Shown here: positions 15,673 through 61,410 of the stretch, in pieces
Numbering within the stretch: position 1 is the stretch's first letter
Layout of the letters: each line of letters opens with the position of its first letter
Origin: Terriglobia bacterium
GTDB taxonomy: Bacteria; Acidobacteriota; Terriglobia; Terriglobales; Acidobacteriaceae
DNA: 64,000 nucleotides
Direction: 5' to 3'
NCBI GenBank assembly: GCA_020073465.1
Contig: JAIQFC010000001.1
Location: 186,001-250,000 of the forward strand
The notes under the pieces: generated by a model
Databases searched by the model: none
Seen by the model: the letters and a program-made list of their open reading frames with translations, nothing else
Told to the model about the DNA's origin: nothing
Position numbers and translations under genes: made by a program

Positions 15673-15733
15673 GTCATCCTGAGCGGAGTAGGAGCTTCGC
15701 GAATAGCGAAGCTGCTGCGTAGTCGAAGGACCC
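15673..15733 (+). repeat. Family A repeat
   Basis: gtcatcctgagcggagtag at the left and tagtcgaaggacccc at the right bracket a hairpin: agcttcgc (15693-15700), loop gaata, gcgaagct (15706-15713). It lies between rpsA and lpdA. Confidence 0.8.
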
Positions 15734-17467: not shown

Positions 17468-18325
17468 TTGATCTCCGTCGTCCAACTCGGCACCATCGAC
17501 TACGCGACAGGCCTGCGCCTGCAACAGCAACTTGTTGACTTGCGCAAAGCCGACAAAATCGGCGACGTCCTCCTCCTGCTTGAACACACACCCGTCATCA
17601 CGTTAGGCCGCAACGCCAAGGCCGCCAACGTAATCGCCTCCCCCGAACTCCTCGCCCGTCGCGGCGTCGAGCTCTTCGAATGCGACCGCGGCGGCGACGT
17701 CACCTTCCACGGCCCCGGCCAGATCGTCGGCTATCCCATCTTCGACTTGCGCGGCTTCGCCACTCCCGACGGCAAACGCAAGACACTCGGCGCCGTCGAA
17801 TTCGTGCGCCGCCTGGAAGAAACCCTGATCCGTACATGCGCCGACTTCGCCATCCCGACCAAGCGAATTGCCGGTCTCACGGGAGTCTGGACCGCCCCCC
17901 ATCCCCTGTCATCCCGAGCGGAGGAGAACGACTCGGCTACGAGTCGTTCTCAGGAGTCGAGGGACCTTGGGTGTGCTCTTGAAGCCGAAGCCAAACTCGC
18001 CGCCATCGGCGTCCACATCTCCCACTTCGTCACCTCGCACGGCTTCGCCCTCAATGTCAACACCGACCTCAGCTACTTCAACCTGATCATCCCCTGCGGC
18101 ATCACGTCGAAGCCCGTCACCTCGATGCAGCAAGAACTCGGCAGAGAACTCGAACTCAACGCCGTCGCCGAATCCATCTCCCGCAACTTCGGCACCGTCT
18201 TCTCCAGCCAGATGCTCTGGGTCGAAACCCTCGACGCCCTCCTCGGCCGCGCCGTCGGCGTTCCTATGAAGCCGCCCACCGAACTCCGCCAGCTCCACAA
18301 AGAAGACGATACGACCTGGGCGTAG
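17468..18325 (+). CDS. lipB: Octanoyltransferase with an in-frame repeat insertion
   Basis: 285 residues from a TTG start. RGGDVTFHGPGQIVGYPIFD is the LipB signature, AKLAAIGVHIS carries the conserved Lys (about K176) and LIIPCGITSK the catalytic Cys (about C210). It moves octanoyl from acyl-ACP to the lipoyl domain of E2, matching its place beside lpdA and E1/E2. Residues about 147-168, between GLTGVW and EAKLAAIG, are encoded by a family A repeat (17908-17970). In typical LipB this is a tight surface turn, so the enzyme probably tolerates the extra 21 or so residues. The last 253 bp overlap an antisense frame. Confidence 0.92.
   Translation: MISVVQLGTIDYATGLRLQQQLVDLRKADKIGDVLLLLEHTPVITLGRNAKAANVIASPELLARRGVELFECDRGGDVTFHGPGQIVGYPIFDLRGFATPDGKRKTLGAVEFVRRLEETLIRTCADFAIPTKRIAGLTGVWTAPHPLSSRAEENDSATSRSQESRDLGCALEAEAKLAAIGVHISHFVTSHGFALNVNTDLSYFNLIIPCGITSKPVTSMQQELGRELELNAVAESISRNFGTVFSSQMLWVETLDALLGRAVGVPMKPPTELRQLHKEDDTTWA
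17908..17970 (+). repeat. Family A repeat inside lipB
   Basis: gtcatcccgagcggagga ... caggagtcgagggacctt, with the stem gaacgactcg (17926-17935), loop gcta, and cgagtcgttc (17940-17949). The element is about 63 bp, a multiple of three, and contains no stop in the lipB frame. Confidence 0.9.
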
Positions 18326-18930: not shown

Positions 18931-20250
18931 ATGGGGACCAAAAAACCAAAGTCCAGGCACAACTCCAGCGGCAACCGTCCGCGCAACGGGGCTTCTCGGT
19001 CGAAGCCCAACAACACAGGGGCGCGAAATAACGACCTCCGCACCTACTCCATCCCCGATTACCGCCTGGAGCATCCCGACTTCACCGTTCGCCAGCGCAT
19101 CGAGAAAGACCGCCACGGCGCCGAGCACGTCCATTACGAAGTCGAAGGCGACCTAAACGCGCCCGTCCCACCCATCCGCGACTCCAAGTATCTCGACAAG
19201 CAGCAGTCCATCGAGATCTACCGCTACATGCTGCTCAACCGCAAAATGGAGGTCGCGCTCGAAAACCTCTACAAGCAGGGCAAGGTCGTCGGCGGAGTCT
19301 ACTTCGGACTCGGCCAGGAAGCCTGCTCCTGCGCCTCTGCCTACGCGCTCGACAAAGACGACTGGTTCGCCCCCATGATCCGCAACCAGGGATCGCTGCT
19401 GGTCCGCGGCTTCGGCGCCAGCGTCACCATGATGCAGTACATGGCCAAAGCCGACTCGCCCACCAAGGGCCGCGACGGCACCTCGCACTTCGGCGACATC
19501 AAAAAGAACAACATGGTCTCGCCCATCTCCATGCTCGGCGATCTCATTCCTGTGATGTCGGGCGTCGCCCTCGGCGCGCGCCTCCAGGGACGCAATCTCG
19601 CCGTCATGACCTACATCGGCGATGGAGGCCAGTCCACCGGCGTCACCTACGAAGGCATCAACTTCGCCGCCGTGCAGAATCTAGGCCTCGTGCTCTTCGT
19701 CGAAAGCAATCTCTGGGCTTATTCGACGCCGTCGGAAATGCAGTACCGCTGCAAAGACCTCGCCGAACGCGCCATCGGATACGGCATCCCCGGCGTCATC
19801 GTCGACGGCACTGACGCCTGCCAGGTCTACGACGCCGCCCACGAAGCCGTCGAGCGCGCCCACCGCGGTGAAGGCCCCACGCTGATCGAAGCCAAGATGA
19901 TGCGCATGAAAGGCCACGCCATCCACGACGCCGCCAGCTACGTGCCGAAATCGATGTTTGATTTCTGGAAGAAGCGCGACCCGATCGTGCGCTTCGAGAA
20001 TTACCTGGTGAAAGAAAAGAAGTGGCTGACGCCGAAAGAGAATCAAGACCTGATCGCGGAAGTGGAGAGGATCATCGAGGAAGAGAGAGAAATCGCCGTA
20101 AACTCTCCCATGCCGACTCCAGAATCCGCAGAAGGCGGCGTCTTCTGCGAAGACGGCTGCCATGAAATCAAACCGAAGTACGGCATGCCGAAAGTGAAGA
20201 AGGGAATCGGCGGCTTCAAGCAGACAGAGGCGGCCGTGCATCTAAAGTGA
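18931..20250 (+). CDS. pdhA: 2-oxo acid dehydrogenase E1 component, alpha subunit
   Basis: 439 residues. A basic, Asn/Ser-rich N-terminal extension (about 40 residues) precedes the fold. YIGDGGQSTGVTYEGINFAA followed by VQNLGLVLFVESN is the thiamine-diphosphate/Mg2+ motif (GDG...N-type), and HAIHDAASYVPK is the phosphorylation-loop equivalent. It pairs with the beta subunit at 21455 to decarboxylate a 2-oxo acid and acylate the E2 lipoyl. Sequence alone cannot tell pyruvate from branched-chain 2-oxo acids; the split alpha/beta form is shared by both. A repeat-bracketed nuclease gene and an unrelated secreted protein lie between the two E1 genes, which is unusual. Confidence 0.88.
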   Translation: MGTKKPKSRHNSSGNRPRNGASRSKPNNTGARNNDLRTYSIPDYRLEHPDFTVRQRIEKDRHGAEHVHYEVEGDLNAPVPPIRDSKYLDKQQSIEIYRYMLLNRKMEVALENLYKQGKVVGGVYFGLGQEACSCASAYALDKDDWFAPMIRNQGSLLVRGFGASVTMMQYMAKADSPTKGRDGTSHFGDIKKNNMVSPISMLGDLIPVMSGVALGARLQGRNLAVMTYIGDGGQSTGVTYEGINFAAVQNLGLVLFVESNLWAYSTPSEMQYRCKDLAERAIGYGIPGVIVDGTDACQVYDAAHEAVERAHRGEGPTLIEAKMMRMKGHAIHDAASYVPKSMFDFWKKRDPIVRFENYLVKEKKWLTPKENQDLIAEVERIIEEEREIAVNSPMPTPESAEGGVFCEDGCHEIKPKYGMPKVKKGIGGFKQTEAAVHLK

Positions 20251-20321
20251 AGCGCGGCTGTGGATTCCTGGGTTACGCGTCACAGACGCTAGCGCGACTA
20301 TGTGGAATGCTCCTCCCAAGT

Positions 20322-20386
20322 GTCATCCCGAGCGGAGCAAGATGATTCGCAAAGCGAATCATTTTGCGCAGTCGAGGGACCTTGTG
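20322..20386 (+). repeat. Family A repeat, left flank of the GIY-YIG gene
   Basis: gtcatcccgagcggagcaag ... gcagtcgagggaccttgtg, with the stem atgattcgc (20342-20350), loop aaa, gcgaatcat (20354-20362). It is in opposite orientation to the copy at 20704-20766. Confidence 0.9.
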
Positions 20387-20405
20387 TTTGGCCGAGAGGA
20401 AGCAA

Positions 20406-20765
20406 ATGCGCCGCGAATATGTTTTCTACGTCTACATTATGCAAAGCGCCTCAAGACGGGCTCTGTACATAGGCATGACGAACAATCTTCGCAAACGCGT
20501 GTGGCAGCATCAGAATCACGCATTCGAAGGTTTCACCGACGACTACAACGCGACGCGCCTCGTATACTGGGAAAGTTTCGATGATGTCCGGAACGCGATT
20601 GATCGTGAGAAACAACTGAAGCGCTGGCGTCGCGAAAAGAAGATCTGGTTAATAGAGAGAAAGAATCCCGGCTGGAAGGATTTGGCAGCCGATTGGCATG
20701 AAACACAAGGTCCCTCGACTGCGGTGCTCGTTCACTCCGTGAACGAGCATCCTCGCTCGGGATGA
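20406..20765 (+). CDS. GIY-YIG nuclease (single domain, YhbQ/UPF0213-like) bracketed by inverted repeats
   Basis: 119 residues from the ATG at 20406. YVFYVYIMQSASRRALYIGM is the GIY-YIG motif in the variant VYI...YIG. It is followed by NNLRKRVWQHQN (catalytic Arg), YNATRLVYWESFDDVRNAID (catalytic Glu region) and REKQLKRWRREKKIWLI, the terminal helix with Lys/Arg; the fold is complete. The last residues (ETQGPSTAVLVHSVNEHPRSG and stop) are encoded by the right-hand repeat. Such mini-nucleases make single- or double-strand cuts; the cellular role of this subfamily is unknown. Its placement between two inverted family A repeats suggests that these repeats are its substrate or that gene plus repeats move together. 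Confidence 0.88.
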   Translation: MRREYVFYVYIMQSASRRALYIGMTNNLRKRVWQHQNHAFEGFTDDYNATRLVYWESFDDVRNAIDREKQLKRWRREKKIWLIERKNPGWKDLAADWHETQGPSTAVLVHSVNEHPRSG

Positions 20766-20766
20766 C
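20704..20766 (-). repeat. Family A repeat, right flank of the GIY-YIG gene (inverted)
   Basis: cacaaggtccctcgactgcg ... cctcgctcgggatgac is the reverse complement of the family A ends. The stem is tgctcgttcac (20725-20735), loop tcc, gtgaacgagca (20739-20749). The left and right copies share their ends exactly but not the stem. Confidence 0.9.
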
Positions 20767-20787
20767 ACAACCTTAGCGGCGCGAAGT

Positions 20788-21435
20788 ATGAACTGCTTCC
20801 TTAATGCGAGATGCTGTGCTCGGTTGAACAGCACTATTCTGCCGCTACTTTTTATCGCACTTACAGTGCCGGCCACTGGTCTCGCCCAGACTCAAGGCAA
20901 CCAAGAAAAGACGGCGATACCAAGCAATCAGCGGGTGACGATCGAGTTAGAGCGGTTCGATGAAGCAAGTGGAAAATTGTGGCTTCGGTTACGCAACTCG
21001 ACGGCCTGGGACATACGCATTCCGGTGGAGACGGCCTTTCCGGGTGAAAAGATTACAGGCGAGGTCGTGAAGTCAGCCAGGAGCCACAAGGATGGAGCGG
21101 AGGCACCCGTTCGGTACTATTTGGAGGAATTTAGCGTAAACAACCCATCGGCCGCCGCAAAATTACCGCCCGTTCCGAAGATACATCGTTACGATTTCCT
21201 CACCGAATGGTGGATCCCGAAGGGCGAGAGCATCCTATTCGTCGTGCCCAAAGAACGTCTCGCGATGAATGTCATGCTGTCGGTATCTCTGAGATATGAA
21301 TGGGAGGATCTGGGGCCGGAAGTCCTCGACGGTCCAGTCCACCTTGTCTACTTTCGAGGGATCGACTTGCCGGATGACGTGCAACTAAAGATCAATAGCA
21401 AATTCTGGAAGGACTGGACAGCACCGAAACCTTGA
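20788..21435 (+). CDS. Exported protein of unknown function
   Basis: 215 residues. An N-terminal hydrophobic signal (STILPLLFIALTVPATGLAQ) is preceded by a Cys/Arg-rich stretch; the true start may be a few residues later. The mature part is beta-rich (VTIELERFDEASGKLWLRLR and later VSLRYEWEDLG) and lacks recognised motifs. It sits between the GIY-YIG module and the E1 beta gene, 19 bp upstream of the latter, so it may be co-transcribed with it, though its content suggests it is a bystander. Confidence 0.65.
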   Translation: MNCFLNARCCARLNSTILPLLFIALTVPATGLAQTQGNQEKTAIPSNQRVTIELERFDEASGKLWLRLRNSTAWDIRIPVETAFPGEKITGEVVKSARSHKDGAEAPVRYYLEEFSVNNPSAAAKLPPVPKIHRYDFLTEWWIPKGESILFVVPKERLAMNVMLSVSLRYEWEDLGPEVLDGPVHLVYFRGIDLPDDVQLKINSKFWKDWTAPKP

Positions 21436-21454: not shown

Positions 21455-22426
21455 ATGCAACTAACCTACCTCGAAGCCATCCGCCAGGGAATCTGGGAAG
21501 AAATGGACCGCGACCCAACCGTCTTCTGCCTGGGCGAAGACATTGGCATTTACGGCGGCGCCTTCAAAGTCACCGACGGATTCATCGACCGCTTTGGACC
21601 CGAGCGCGTCATCGACACGCCCATCGCCGAGTCCGCCATCGTGGGCGCGGCCTTCGGAGCGTCGCTCACCGGCATGCGCCCCGTCGTCGAATTCCAGTTC
21701 ATGGACTTCATCGGCTGCGCCTTCAACCAGATCTCCAACATGGTCGCCAAGACGCATTACCTCTGGGGTGCGCCCGCCCCGCTCGTCCTCCGCGGCCCCA
21801 GCGGCGGATACGTCCACGGCGGCCCCTTCCACTCACAAAATCCCGAGATGTGGTTCGTCCACAATCCCGGCCTCAAAGTCATCTGCCCAGCCACGCCCTA
21901 CGACGCCAAAGGTCTGATCAAGGCCGCCATCCGCGACAGCAACCCCTGCATCTTCTTCGAACACAAATATCTCTACCGCCGCATCAAGGGAGAAGTTCCC
22001 GCGGAAGATTACGTCGTTCCCATCGGCAAGGCGAACATCGCCCGCGAAGGCCACGACCTGAGCGTGATCACCTATGCCGCGATGGTCCACACCGCGTTGG
22101 AGGCCGCCGAGGTTCTGAAGAACGACGGAATCGATCTTGAGATCCTCGACCTGCGCACCGTCTCGCCGCTTGATCGTGAAGCCATCGCGCAGACCGTGAA
22201 GAAAACCAACAAAGTCATCATCCTTCACGAACACTCTCGCACCGGAGGCCTGGCCGGAGAAATTGCCGCCATCATCAACGAAGAGGCGTTCGACGACCTC
22301 GATGGCCCCATCGTCCGCATCGCCGGCCTGGATTCCGCAGTCCCGTTTTCCCCTCCGCAGGAGCATCACTACCTGCCGAAGGTGGAAGACGTAGTCCGCG
22401 AAGCCCGCCGCCTGAAGGCATACTAG
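21455..22426 (+). CDS. pdhB: 2-oxo acid dehydrogenase E1 component, beta subunit
   Basis: 323 residues, normal length. MQLTYLEAIRQGIWEEMDRD, FCLGEDIGIYGGAFKVTDG, VIDTPIAESAIVGAAFGASL (ThDP-contact Glu) and the C-terminal AGLDSAVPFSPPQEHHYLPK are standard for E1 beta of the split type. It forms the alpha2beta2 decarboxylase with the subunit at 18931. It lies after the secreted protein and before the cytochrome c gene. Confidence 0.93.
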   Translation: MQLTYLEAIRQGIWEEMDRDPTVFCLGEDIGIYGGAFKVTDGFIDRFGPERVIDTPIAESAIVGAAFGASLTGMRPVVEFQFMDFIGCAFNQISNMVAKTHYLWGAPAPLVLRGPSGGYVHGGPFHSQNPEMWFVHNPGLKVICPATPYDAKGLIKAAIRDSNPCIFFEHKYLYRRIKGEVPAEDYVVPIGKANIAREGHDLSVITYAAMVHTALEAAEVLKNDGIDLEILDLRTVSPLDREAIAQTVKKTNKVIILHEHSRTGGLAGEIAAIINEEAFDDLDGPIVRIAGLDSAVPFSPPQEHHYLPKVEDVVREARRLKAY

Positions 22427-31637: not shown

Positions 31638-31738
31638 AACTCTCAGTTCTCAGTTCTCAGTTCTCAGCCCCGCTCCCAGGGCCCCTCCCCATGGAAGGTT
31701 CCAACTGAGAACTGAAAACTGAGAACCGAGAACTGGTT
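31638..31738. repeat. Tandem simple repeats between capsid and connector genes
   Basis: tctcagttctcagttctcag (31638-31665) and, inverted, aactgagaactgaaaactga with gaaccgagaactgg (31695-31736) form short tandem words that can pair with each other. Similar words occur at 38470-38500. No promoter was recognised. Confidence 0.55.
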
Positions 31739-32780: not shown

Positions 32781-32839
32781 GTCATCCTGAGCGCAGGAGT
32801 TGCTTCACGAAGTGAAGCAACTCCGGAGTCGAAGGACCT
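32781..32839 (+). repeat. Family A repeat with a 13-bp stem
   Basis: gtcatcctgagcg ... gagtcgaaggacct encloses ggagttgcttcac (32796-32808), loop gaa, gtgaagcaactcc (32812-32824): the longest perfect stem of the set. Confidence 0.9.
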
Positions 32840-53964: not shown

Positions 53965-54041
53965 ATTTTTGATTGTTGATTATTGATTGTTGATTGAAAA
54001 CCGGAGCAGGCATGCCGACGAGCGCGCCTGGCTCCGGTTTT
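53965..54041. terminator. Tandem word array followed by a rho-independent terminator
   Basis: tttgattgttgattattgat tgttgattg (53970-53996) is a short tandem repeat. Then aaaaccggagc (53997-54007) pairs with gctccggtttt (54031-54041), followed by gtgttttt. A similar attgttgattg array lies at 61367-61394. The terminator would end the repressor transcript and, on the other strand, the propeller lipoprotein transcript. Confidence 0.7.
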
Positions 54042-60906: not shown

Positions 60907-61410
60907 TCAAACCCAGTGGTCCAACAACCGTTCAAGGATCTCCACCGCTTTGCTCAGCTTGTGGAGTTCGTCTGGAGTGAGGACGTCGAGCTGGGCGGCG
61001 AGGGATGCGATGCGAAGTTGGCGTCCTTTTTGCAGCAGGCGCCTGCCCTTGGGCGTGGCGCGGATGTTCAGGCGGCGGGCGTCGCGGGGATCGGCGGTGA
61101 TCACGGCCAGGCGGCGGCTGGCCAAGCCGGCTGCAATGCGGCTCATGGTGGGCGGTTTGACCTGTTCGGCCGCGGCGAGCTCGCCCAGCGTTTTGGGGCC
61201 TCCGAACACGAGAACGGACAGTGCGGAAAGGCGAGCGGGTCCTTCGCCGGTGGCGACGTCCTGTTTGCGGACGCGGCGCAGCAGGTGGATGGCGGCAGAG
61301 TGGAGGCGGTCGGCTACGGCGAGGGGTGCGAGATTCGATCGTGCTGTGGCGCCTGGGATGCGATTGTTGATTGCTGATTGTTGATTGTTGATTGAGGTGC
61401 GGCGCGGCAT
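60907..61410 (-). CDS. MarR-family transcriptional regulator
   Basis: 167 residues. ADRLHSAAIHLLRRVRKQDV, ARLSALSVLVFGGPKTLGEL and AAEQVKPPTMSRIAAGLASR followed by LAVITADPRDARRLNIRATP form the MarR winged helix with its DxRDxR-like wing. The first 16 residues are encoded by a short tandem-word array (attgttgattg), so the real start may be a little downstream. It faces the VOC gene, with a perfect palindrome between them (61438-61454), and probably represses one or both. Confidence 0.88.
   Translation of the reverse strand: MPRRTSINNQQSAINNRIPGATARSNLAPLAVADRLHSAAIHLLRRVRKQDVATGEGPARLSALSVLVFGGPKTLGELAAAEQVKPPTMSRIAAGLASRRLAVITADPRDARRLNIRATPKGRRLLQKGRQLRIASLAAQLDVLTPDELHKLSKAVEILERLLDHWV

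Follow-up and report, generated by a model that had tools for sequence, protein, structure and literature searches.

Reportedly, the closest described counterpart of the locus analysed here comes from Neisseria meningitidis, for which a study by Chenal et al. in Nature Communications in 2025 is said to introduce Ssn, a site-specific single-strand GIY-YIG nuclease that acts on NTS repeats. The Ssn study is further said to cover many homologues with different specificities for corresponding sequences and to link the nuclease to natural transformation, and in Neisseria the nuclease reportedly treats its repeats as marks of the chromosome and cuts single strands that come in. The action of GIY-YIG enzymes on DNA is purely hydrolytic, with no covalent attachment of the ends to the enzyme, and their two conserved tyrosines, the arginine and the glutamate have catalytic roles.

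dRS3 of Neisseria is, like RPE-4 and RPE-6 of Rickettsia, a member of the CGTC-tagged superfamily of REPs delineated by Di Nocera, De Gregorio and Rocco in 2013 (PMC3733652), whose members, according to that paper, have a stem of 8-9 bp, a loop of 4-5 nt, a tail CCA and the tag CGTC, or else TGTC or CCTC. The same paper describes these repeats as not associated with transposase genes, a few fortuitous cases aside, and as lacking a dedicated transposase, and it leaves open what makes and moves them. According to PMC3733652 and PMC8266576, RAYTs are the known or presumed movers of REPs elsewhere, and a RAYT reads tag and hairpin on single strands (PMC8266576). The available part of the RepRanger paper (PMC12306157) names no nuclease or transposase. 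Literature linking GIY-YIG genes to REPs was not found by title or abstract in a search that left most subscription papers outside, and we do not claim that such a link is unpublished.

The window, i.e. the whole stretch of 64,000 nucleotides that was analysed, covers positions 186001-250000 of contig C19 of the 5.9-Mb genome G000. An earlier note on this DNA had described a complete single-domain GIY-YIG nuclease gene between two opposed repeats, and this description is correct. The gene (20406-20765, forward strand) is an intact ORF of 119 aa that runs from the ATG at 20406 to the TGA at 20763-20765, and its product belongs to the PF01541 superfamily, with an E-value of 2.9e-15 and 56.8 bits as compared with a curated cut-off of 22.6. 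The left repeat (20321-20389, forward strand) has an outward TGTC tag, conserved ends and a variable palindromic core, as judged by its arms, its folding and the comparison of copies, and the right repeat (20701-20768, reverse strand) is its inverted counterpart by arms and folding. Two pairs of inverted arms are each 100% complementary, namely 20367-20389 with 20701-20723 (23 nt) and 20320-20334 with 20754-20768 (15 nt), and the cores that lie between these arms differ between the left and the right repeat. When each repeat is folded alone as DNA, it beats 200 shuffles (z -4.3 and -4.2). Outward-tag brackets were found in only about 0.5% of 20,000 random 350-bp intervals of the window, and a chance origin of this bracket is therefore unlikely. 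The 445 bp that had been given for the unit (20322-20766) correspond to the distance GTC..GAC, and with the complementary outer bases the unit TGTC..GACA extends from 20321 to 20767. It had also been noted that the last codons lie inside the right repeat; in fact, the repeat provides these codons and the stop codon as well, with the TGA being part of the tag GGATGAC. On one side, the unit is neighboured by a dehydrogenase E1-alpha-like gene (18931-20250), for which we use the name pdhA, and on the other side by an ORF (20788-21435) and then by an E1-beta-like gene that begins at 21455. The names pdhA, E1-alpha, E1-beta and lipB, which we use throughout, are our assignments as read from the translations.

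As to the enzyme, the residues Y10, Y21, G23, R31 and E68 are invariant in an alignment of 17 members. The predicted fold of the window protein has a pLDDT of 84, and a Foldseek search with it first matched 1zg2 (E 9e-4) and Slx1 chains, with weaker matches to UvrC domains. PF01541 gave the only Pfam matches to the window protein at E <= 0.001, and neither an HUH tyrosine transposase domain nor a separate DNA-binding domain was found in that scan; a phage protein family annotated as “homing endonuclease with GIY-YIG motif” (phrog_5123) matched weakly (E 1.2e-4). The protein thus resembles stand-alone GIY-YIG proteins of the UPF0213 type (PDB 1zg2) and GIY-YIG homing endonucleases in fold and catalytic residues, but it has no separate DNA-binding domain in the Pfam scan, and its gene is flanked by REPs. 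With a median dN/dS of 0.06 in 58 close pairs, the nuclease is under purifying selection, and frames of <95 aa in 5 of the 71 small loci tested indicate that decay of nuclease genes also occurs. The arrangement is like that of RAYT or TnpA-REP REPtrons as described in PMC2817692 and PMC8266576, in which the gene lies between inverted REPs, solo copies are scattered and specificity is cognate, a specificity that the enzyme of the window would presumably share. However, RAYTs belong to the HUH tyrosine enzymes, which both cut and rejoin DNA, whereas the window protein has PF01541 only and a predicted GIY-YIG fold, and the GTAG tag of RAYT REPs is replaced by TGTC or CGTC in nearly all units. The latter tags are among those of the CGTC REPs (CGTC, or TGTC, CCTC).

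How far nuclease and repeat belong together was analysed in 45 genomes of the genus, 43 of which contain a GIY-YIG domain. From 76 fetched small-gene loci, 71 with 300 bp of flank on both sides were tested, with five being dropped for short flanks; twenty further matches were fetched and repeat-typed only, and the remaining weak rows lie outside the sample. A bracket was taken to be a pair of outward-pointing GTCAT[CTG]C tags, one on each side and not more than 300 bp away. Such brackets surround 49 of the 71 genes, as compared with the above-mentioned 0.5% of random window intervals and with 2.8% (4/141) of displaced intervals at the same loci. The strict 11-base (C/T)GTCAT head is present on at least one side in 69 of the 71 loci and on both sides in 59, and in 45 of these 59 the left type equals the right type (shuffled mean 10.6, maximum 22). 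The earlier note had proposed to examine whether homologues are regularly flanked by the same kind of ends, and according to these numbers the flanking is systematic. The right tag lies at -6 from the stop codon in 12 of 71 loci. When only inverted-repeat scores are considered (75 loci), cognate pairs have a median of 49 and non-cognate pairs a median of 23 with a 95% point of 43; this gain is real but partial, because related loci share repeat types. The repeat types also follow the proteins: on the protein tree, the head types require 16 changes, fewer than in any of 200 shuffles (mean 41), and between genomes repeat similarity tracks protein similarity (Mantel rho 0.56, permutation maximum 0.13), with descent contributing to both figures. 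One small head type, GTCATCCTGAA (3 rows), does not cluster on this tree. We regard the pairing of nuclease and repeat as virtually certain, and it is very likely that each protein recognises its own repeat.

Several such pairs coexist in the window genome. PF01541 matches lie at eight places, which are uvrC (L005) and seven small GIY-YIG genes, and all seven of the latter have inverted REP-like repeats nearby, whose heads are (C/T)GTCAT and whose sequences otherwise are each their own. Three of the seven (L002, L003 and L007) have repeat dimers on both sides, and L007 has a low simple inverted-repeat score of 35. L008 is less clear, since it has a shortened frame of 81 aa, whose end contains a chance tag, and the true right repeat is found at +127 from the stop codon. 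That brackets are a property of any GIY-YIG gene was considered and rejected, as the uvrC domains L005 and L037 have background scores of 24 and 21 (around the domain only), close to the non-cognate median of 23. A head-to-head repeat dimer is present inside the uvrC open frame itself (L005:733-868, G000:C66). Repeats in repair genes of other species are noted by Di Nocera et al. (PMC3733652).

Similar brackets exist outside the genus. A scan of genome contigs across many phyla gave 578 relatives, of which the best 80 were taken; the inverted-repeat test covered 79 (one dropped), including five duplicates of genus loci, and the tag test dropped 17 of the 80 (these five duplicates and 12 short ones). 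Among these best 80 of 578, the inverted-repeat score was above the 95% point of 632 non-cognate pairs in 42 of 79 loci and not above it in 37. At the loci of this set that are not labelled Acidobacteriota, outward brackets occur at 25 of 46 as opposed to none of 247 mock genes, and a tag on some side occurs at 43 of 46 as opposed to 47 of 247 mock genes. Chance or a repeat-dense background as a source of the brackets was rejected on the basis of the random and displaced intervals and of the mock genes. Of 35 matching records in a plasmid collection, 16 were fetched, and 13 of these have an inverted-repeat score of at least 36 beside the gene, i.e. the 95% point of the cross-phylum non-cognate scores, which Planktothrix just reaches. 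Homologues lacking flanking repeats, which the earlier note had named as evidence against its proposal, do occur: they comprise the two of 71 genus loci that have no strict tag (L043 and L075), which by their C-terminal halves look like another GIY-YIG subfamily, and three of the 16 plasmid-collection loci (Photobacterium, Rhizobium tumorigenes and Sphingomonas paeninsulae), in which the score test detected no inverted repeat beside the gene.

CGTC-headed repeats lie beside the homologue in Azospirillum lipoferum 4B, in Sinorhizobium meliloti and in Neisseria gonorrhoeae (a 2.17-Mb record labelled plasmid), the homologue of the latter sitting among CGTCATTCCCGC..GCGGGAATCC repeats and having 47.7% identity (E 5e-18). 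We assume that this gonococcal protein is the orthologue of the published Ssn. With Ssn/NTS, as the latter is reported, the window system shares a cognate genomic repeat beside the gene and, as far as the gonococcal homologue shows, the same kind of small GIY-YIG protein with a single domain. It differs in that there are several paralogous pairs per genome, that the repeats, with their variable palindromic core, are longer, and that the pairs act like units that are bounded by tags and for which empty sites exist. In comparison with the CGTC REPs as described in PMC3733652, the repeats are alike in an unpaired (C/T)GTC tag, with AT after it in most cases, in head-to-head pairs and in intragenic copies, and homologues from Neisseria, A. 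lipoferum and S. meliloti, taxa that are named there, lie between such repeats. Unlike in that description, family A repeats, to which those of the window gene belong, are about 60 nt long with a longer variable core in place of the 8-9-bp stem and 4-5-nt loop, the tail is not CCA, and the authors of PMC3733652 report no associated enzyme. By eye, the original format of stem, loop and tail is found at the A. lipoferum, S. meliloti and Saccharibacteria loci, and N. gonorrhoeae has stem and loop with a CCG tail.

Alike pairs also occur at unrelated addresses. Among 166 pairs that are alike in protein and repeat, both outer flanks are unrelated in 116, for which vertical descent alone is unlikely, and a flank is shared in 50, which may be plain orthologues. 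In 74 non-syntenic pairs, homology stops within 8 bp of the tag edge on the left side in 33 and on the right side in 40 (raw counts), and it does not end at the tag in 41 and 34, respectively. The GTCATGC clade has many homology ends within 1-2 bp of TGTC and GACA, as for example in L038 and L047 of one genome. In 45 of 51 bracketed units, the bases directly outside GTC and GAC are complementary to each other (T/A in 40, C/G in 5, other in 6). Clear target duplications were not seen in these 51 units, where matches of 2 bp were found in 11, of 4 bp in 4, of 7 bp in one and of 8 bp in none (raw counts), with the 2-bp matches being by our estimate close to the chance rate; the target-site duplication typical of DDE-type insertion sequences or MITEs is therefore lacking. 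In the window clade, comparison of L001 with L051 gives a sharp right end, and in L016 versus L027 and L051 homology continues past the stop codon into further repeats. On the left side, homology with non-syntenic cousins extends 45-95 bp beyond the left repeat, and the 445 bp are therefore not the exact unit on this side; the left repeat of this clade is apparently located within the unit's leader.

The extended left homology includes the motif CGTCACAGAC, which in the window lies outside the left repeat (20278-20287, forward strand). With one mismatch allowed, 25 of the 76 fetched genes have this motif upstream, at a distance to the start codon of mostly 40-60 nt, and it may be a shared operator or promoter. 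The motif at 20278-20287 is also close to ATGTTCATTCGTCACAGAC, and motifs of this kind are likewise found upstream at L002, L006, L016, L026, L029, L042, L051, L057, L061 and L067; some contain the palindrome TGTGAC-N4-GTCACA, and in the window clade the distance to the start codon is about 130 nt. The exact 13-mer TCGTCACAGACRC has three matches in the genome, two of which are at GIY-YIG genes, and the third (G000:C36) falls within an open frame of 427 aa that has no listed GIY-YIG gene in its vicinity.

The earlier note had also suggested a search for empty sites in relatives, which succeeded in part. For the window site downstream of pdhA, 30 genus loci were compared: the gene is present in G000 and G031, and the fetched stretch contains no GIY-YIG match in 27 of the 30, four of which have no E1-beta gene in this stretch. 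G002 has the order pdhA - ORF - E1-beta with the unit absent. In G037, the left tag region continues directly into the last codons of the gene and the right repeat, and the sequence is thus that of an internally deleted unit. A base-pair-exact empty site was not obtained for the window unit, as the sequences that follow pdhA are too divergent. The three carriers of unit or remnant among the 30 loci are scattered on the pdhA tree (3 changes), and insertion and loss are therefore indistinguishable there; repeated gain, transfer, or one gain followed by many losses are all possible. The 528-bp unit L073 of G025 lies at distances of 23 and 21 bp from the neighbouring frames. Its joined flanks matched in 41 of 45 genomes, 30 loci were fetched and 12 aligned, and the unit is absent in all 12 aligned genomes, with projected edges -50 to +101 nt apart. 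The nearest of these, G019, contains a short stretch with the start TGTCATGCTGA and the end ATGACA, which we read as a putative tag-to-tag remnant, and G028 (+101) may contain a decayed one.

Comparison of the genomes thus demonstrates that gene and repeat type co-occur across genomes, that alike pairs lie at unrelated places, and that empty sites as well as apparent remnants with both tags exist. In our reading, many nuclease-repeat pairs form REP-ended mobile units, for which cutting and moving are deduced from these patterns. It is likely that whole units move, and the chances that the nuclease itself drives this movement appear evenly balanced. With a systematic bracket, a repeat type that goes with the clade, unrelated addresses and empty sites, the earlier characterisation as a REPtron-like arrangement with an unrelated enzyme is fair. 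The proposal of a possible new mobile unit is supported by the unrelated addresses and by the sites without unit, but the left edge is inexact, and the kind is probably not wholly new if Ssn/NTS is as reported.

Repeats of this type also occur without the gene. The earlier note had counted more than ten loose copies in the window, which is generous: with two mismatches allowed, family A and its closest kin are found only six times, including the two at the gene, while 13 heads GTCATNC[CT]GA are present that belong to several families. The repeat scan detected related solo repeats of the form GTCATCCTGAGC .. GTCGAAGGACC at 15673-15732 and 32781-32838 (both forward strand). A solo family A repeat at 17908-17966 (forward strand), supported by scan and cross-genome comparison, lies within a lipB-like frame (17468-18325) and is read through in frame; at the same codon, G032 has no insert and G007 only 9 nt, while some genomes carry family A repeats and others different repeat-like inserts. 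Copies that match the strict pattern GTCATCCCGAGCG..AGTCGAGGGACC are present in 26 of the 45 genomes, with only five in the window genome and up to 21 in G021. They are mostly 55-61 nt long, with a tail ..GGGACC and a longer variable core. In 19 hand-picked copies of 58 nt, whose constant ends follow from the search pattern, the cores vary among copies yet are palindromic, since 87% of the positions pair within a copy as compared with 46% between copies.

Family A copies away from the gene number 3, 18, 1 and 3 in the genomes with the clade nuclease and 8 in the remnant-bearing G037, as compared with a median of 1 and a maximum of 4 in the 40 other genomes. They thus tend to be commoner where the nuclease is present (p 0.03, or 0.008 with the G037 remnant). 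Many family A repeats in genomes without the nuclease had been named as a finding that would speak against the proposal, and to some extent this is what was found, as the repeats occur in 26 of 45 genomes and the clade nuclease in only four plus one remnant (among fetched loci, with several genomes being incomplete). In G021, which has the highest count, the clade nuclease gene L051 has a stop codon in frame. About a dozen of the G021 copies share nearly one core (CAGAATTGCCG..CGGCAATTCTG), which suggests a recent burst. G001 has a solo copy nearly identical to the right repeat of the window, and the 1.4 kb fetched there contain nothing that matches the window protein. For the GTCATGC family, the association between counts of one 17-mer and its nuclease is weak (p 0.0075, then 0.035 after two more carrier genomes were recognised), and up to 8 copies occur in genomes without that nuclease.

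What mechanism could account for these observations? Probably, the gene encodes an Ssn-like GIY-YIG endonuclease that is paired with its own CGTC/TGTC-tagged REPs, with cutting by the enzyme and placement by host repair. The enzyme would recognise tag and base of the repeat on a folded single strand, as exposed at a replication fork or in incoming DNA, and would cut near the tag of the folded repeat; we infer this recognition by analogy from the reading of tag and hairpin by RAYTs. As GIY-YIG enzymes hydrolyse without covalent holding of the ends, host repair, replication or recombination would have to place the cut or released strand. Such placement could copy the whole unit, or the repeat alone, into new sites without target duplication, and later loss of the nuclease gene would leave solo repeats and tag-to-tag remnants.

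What alternatives exist for this mechanism? It is less probable, though still worth considering, that the system controls transformation or DNA uptake, with the nuclease cutting incoming single strands at repeat marks and the units being spread by gene transfer and recombination between repeats rather than by the nuclease. The gonococcal homologue among CGTC REPs, the three scattered carriers at the pdhA site, which fit lateral transfer, and the reported tie of Ssn to natural transformation agree with such a role. However, homology between cousins often stops at the tags with no shared flank, most clearly in the GTCATGC clade, which is explained less well by recombination between repeats, and the deleted derivatives that keep both tags likewise argue against it. 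It is improbable that a RAYT or another transposase moves the repeats and that the nuclease gene is passive cargo caught between two of them: although RAYTs move, or are believed to move, REPs elsewhere (PMC3733652 and PMC8266576), passive capture would not yield a repeat type that follows the nuclease clade, nor seven different pairs in one genome, and CGTC repeats are, few fortuitous cases aside, described in the former as not transposase-associated. That the repeats are only regulatory, i.e. terminators or 5' hairpins that restrain a dangerous nuclease and are shared by descent, is highly improbable; the right repeat indeed gives the stop codon in many members and the left one can sit in a leader, but solo copies exist away from nuclease genes, including those in frame in lipB, and clade-specific repeat types occur at unrelated sites.

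If the endonuclease with host-dependent placement is generalised, stand-alone GIY-YIG nucleases could be the missing dedicated enzymes of the CGTC REPs across bacteria, forming autonomous “GIY-YIG REPtrons” with two terminal repeats that spread by hydrolytic cutting of folded single strands and host repair, a generalisation to which we give about the same chance of being right as of being wrong. REP mobility would then exist in a form chemically unlike that of the HUH RAYTs, with several specificities side by side in one genome, and, if it is the enzyme that moves the units, a non-HUH, non-DDE enzyme would drive REP spread. If the units are not moved by the enzyme, the pairs may still represent a toolbox of repeat-specific nucleases. 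The data tie CGTC-type repeats to one nuclease family at loci of several phyla, and the many natural pairs, which differ in sequence, make the question testable at the bench.

Apart from the REPs, the window contains short heptanucleotide arrays. TCTCAGT is arrayed at 31641-31667 and its reverse complement at 31703-31735, 35 bp apart (in the order of the coordinates as listed), and the unit ATTGTTG is arrayed at 53965-53996 and at 61362-61394, 7.4 kb apart.
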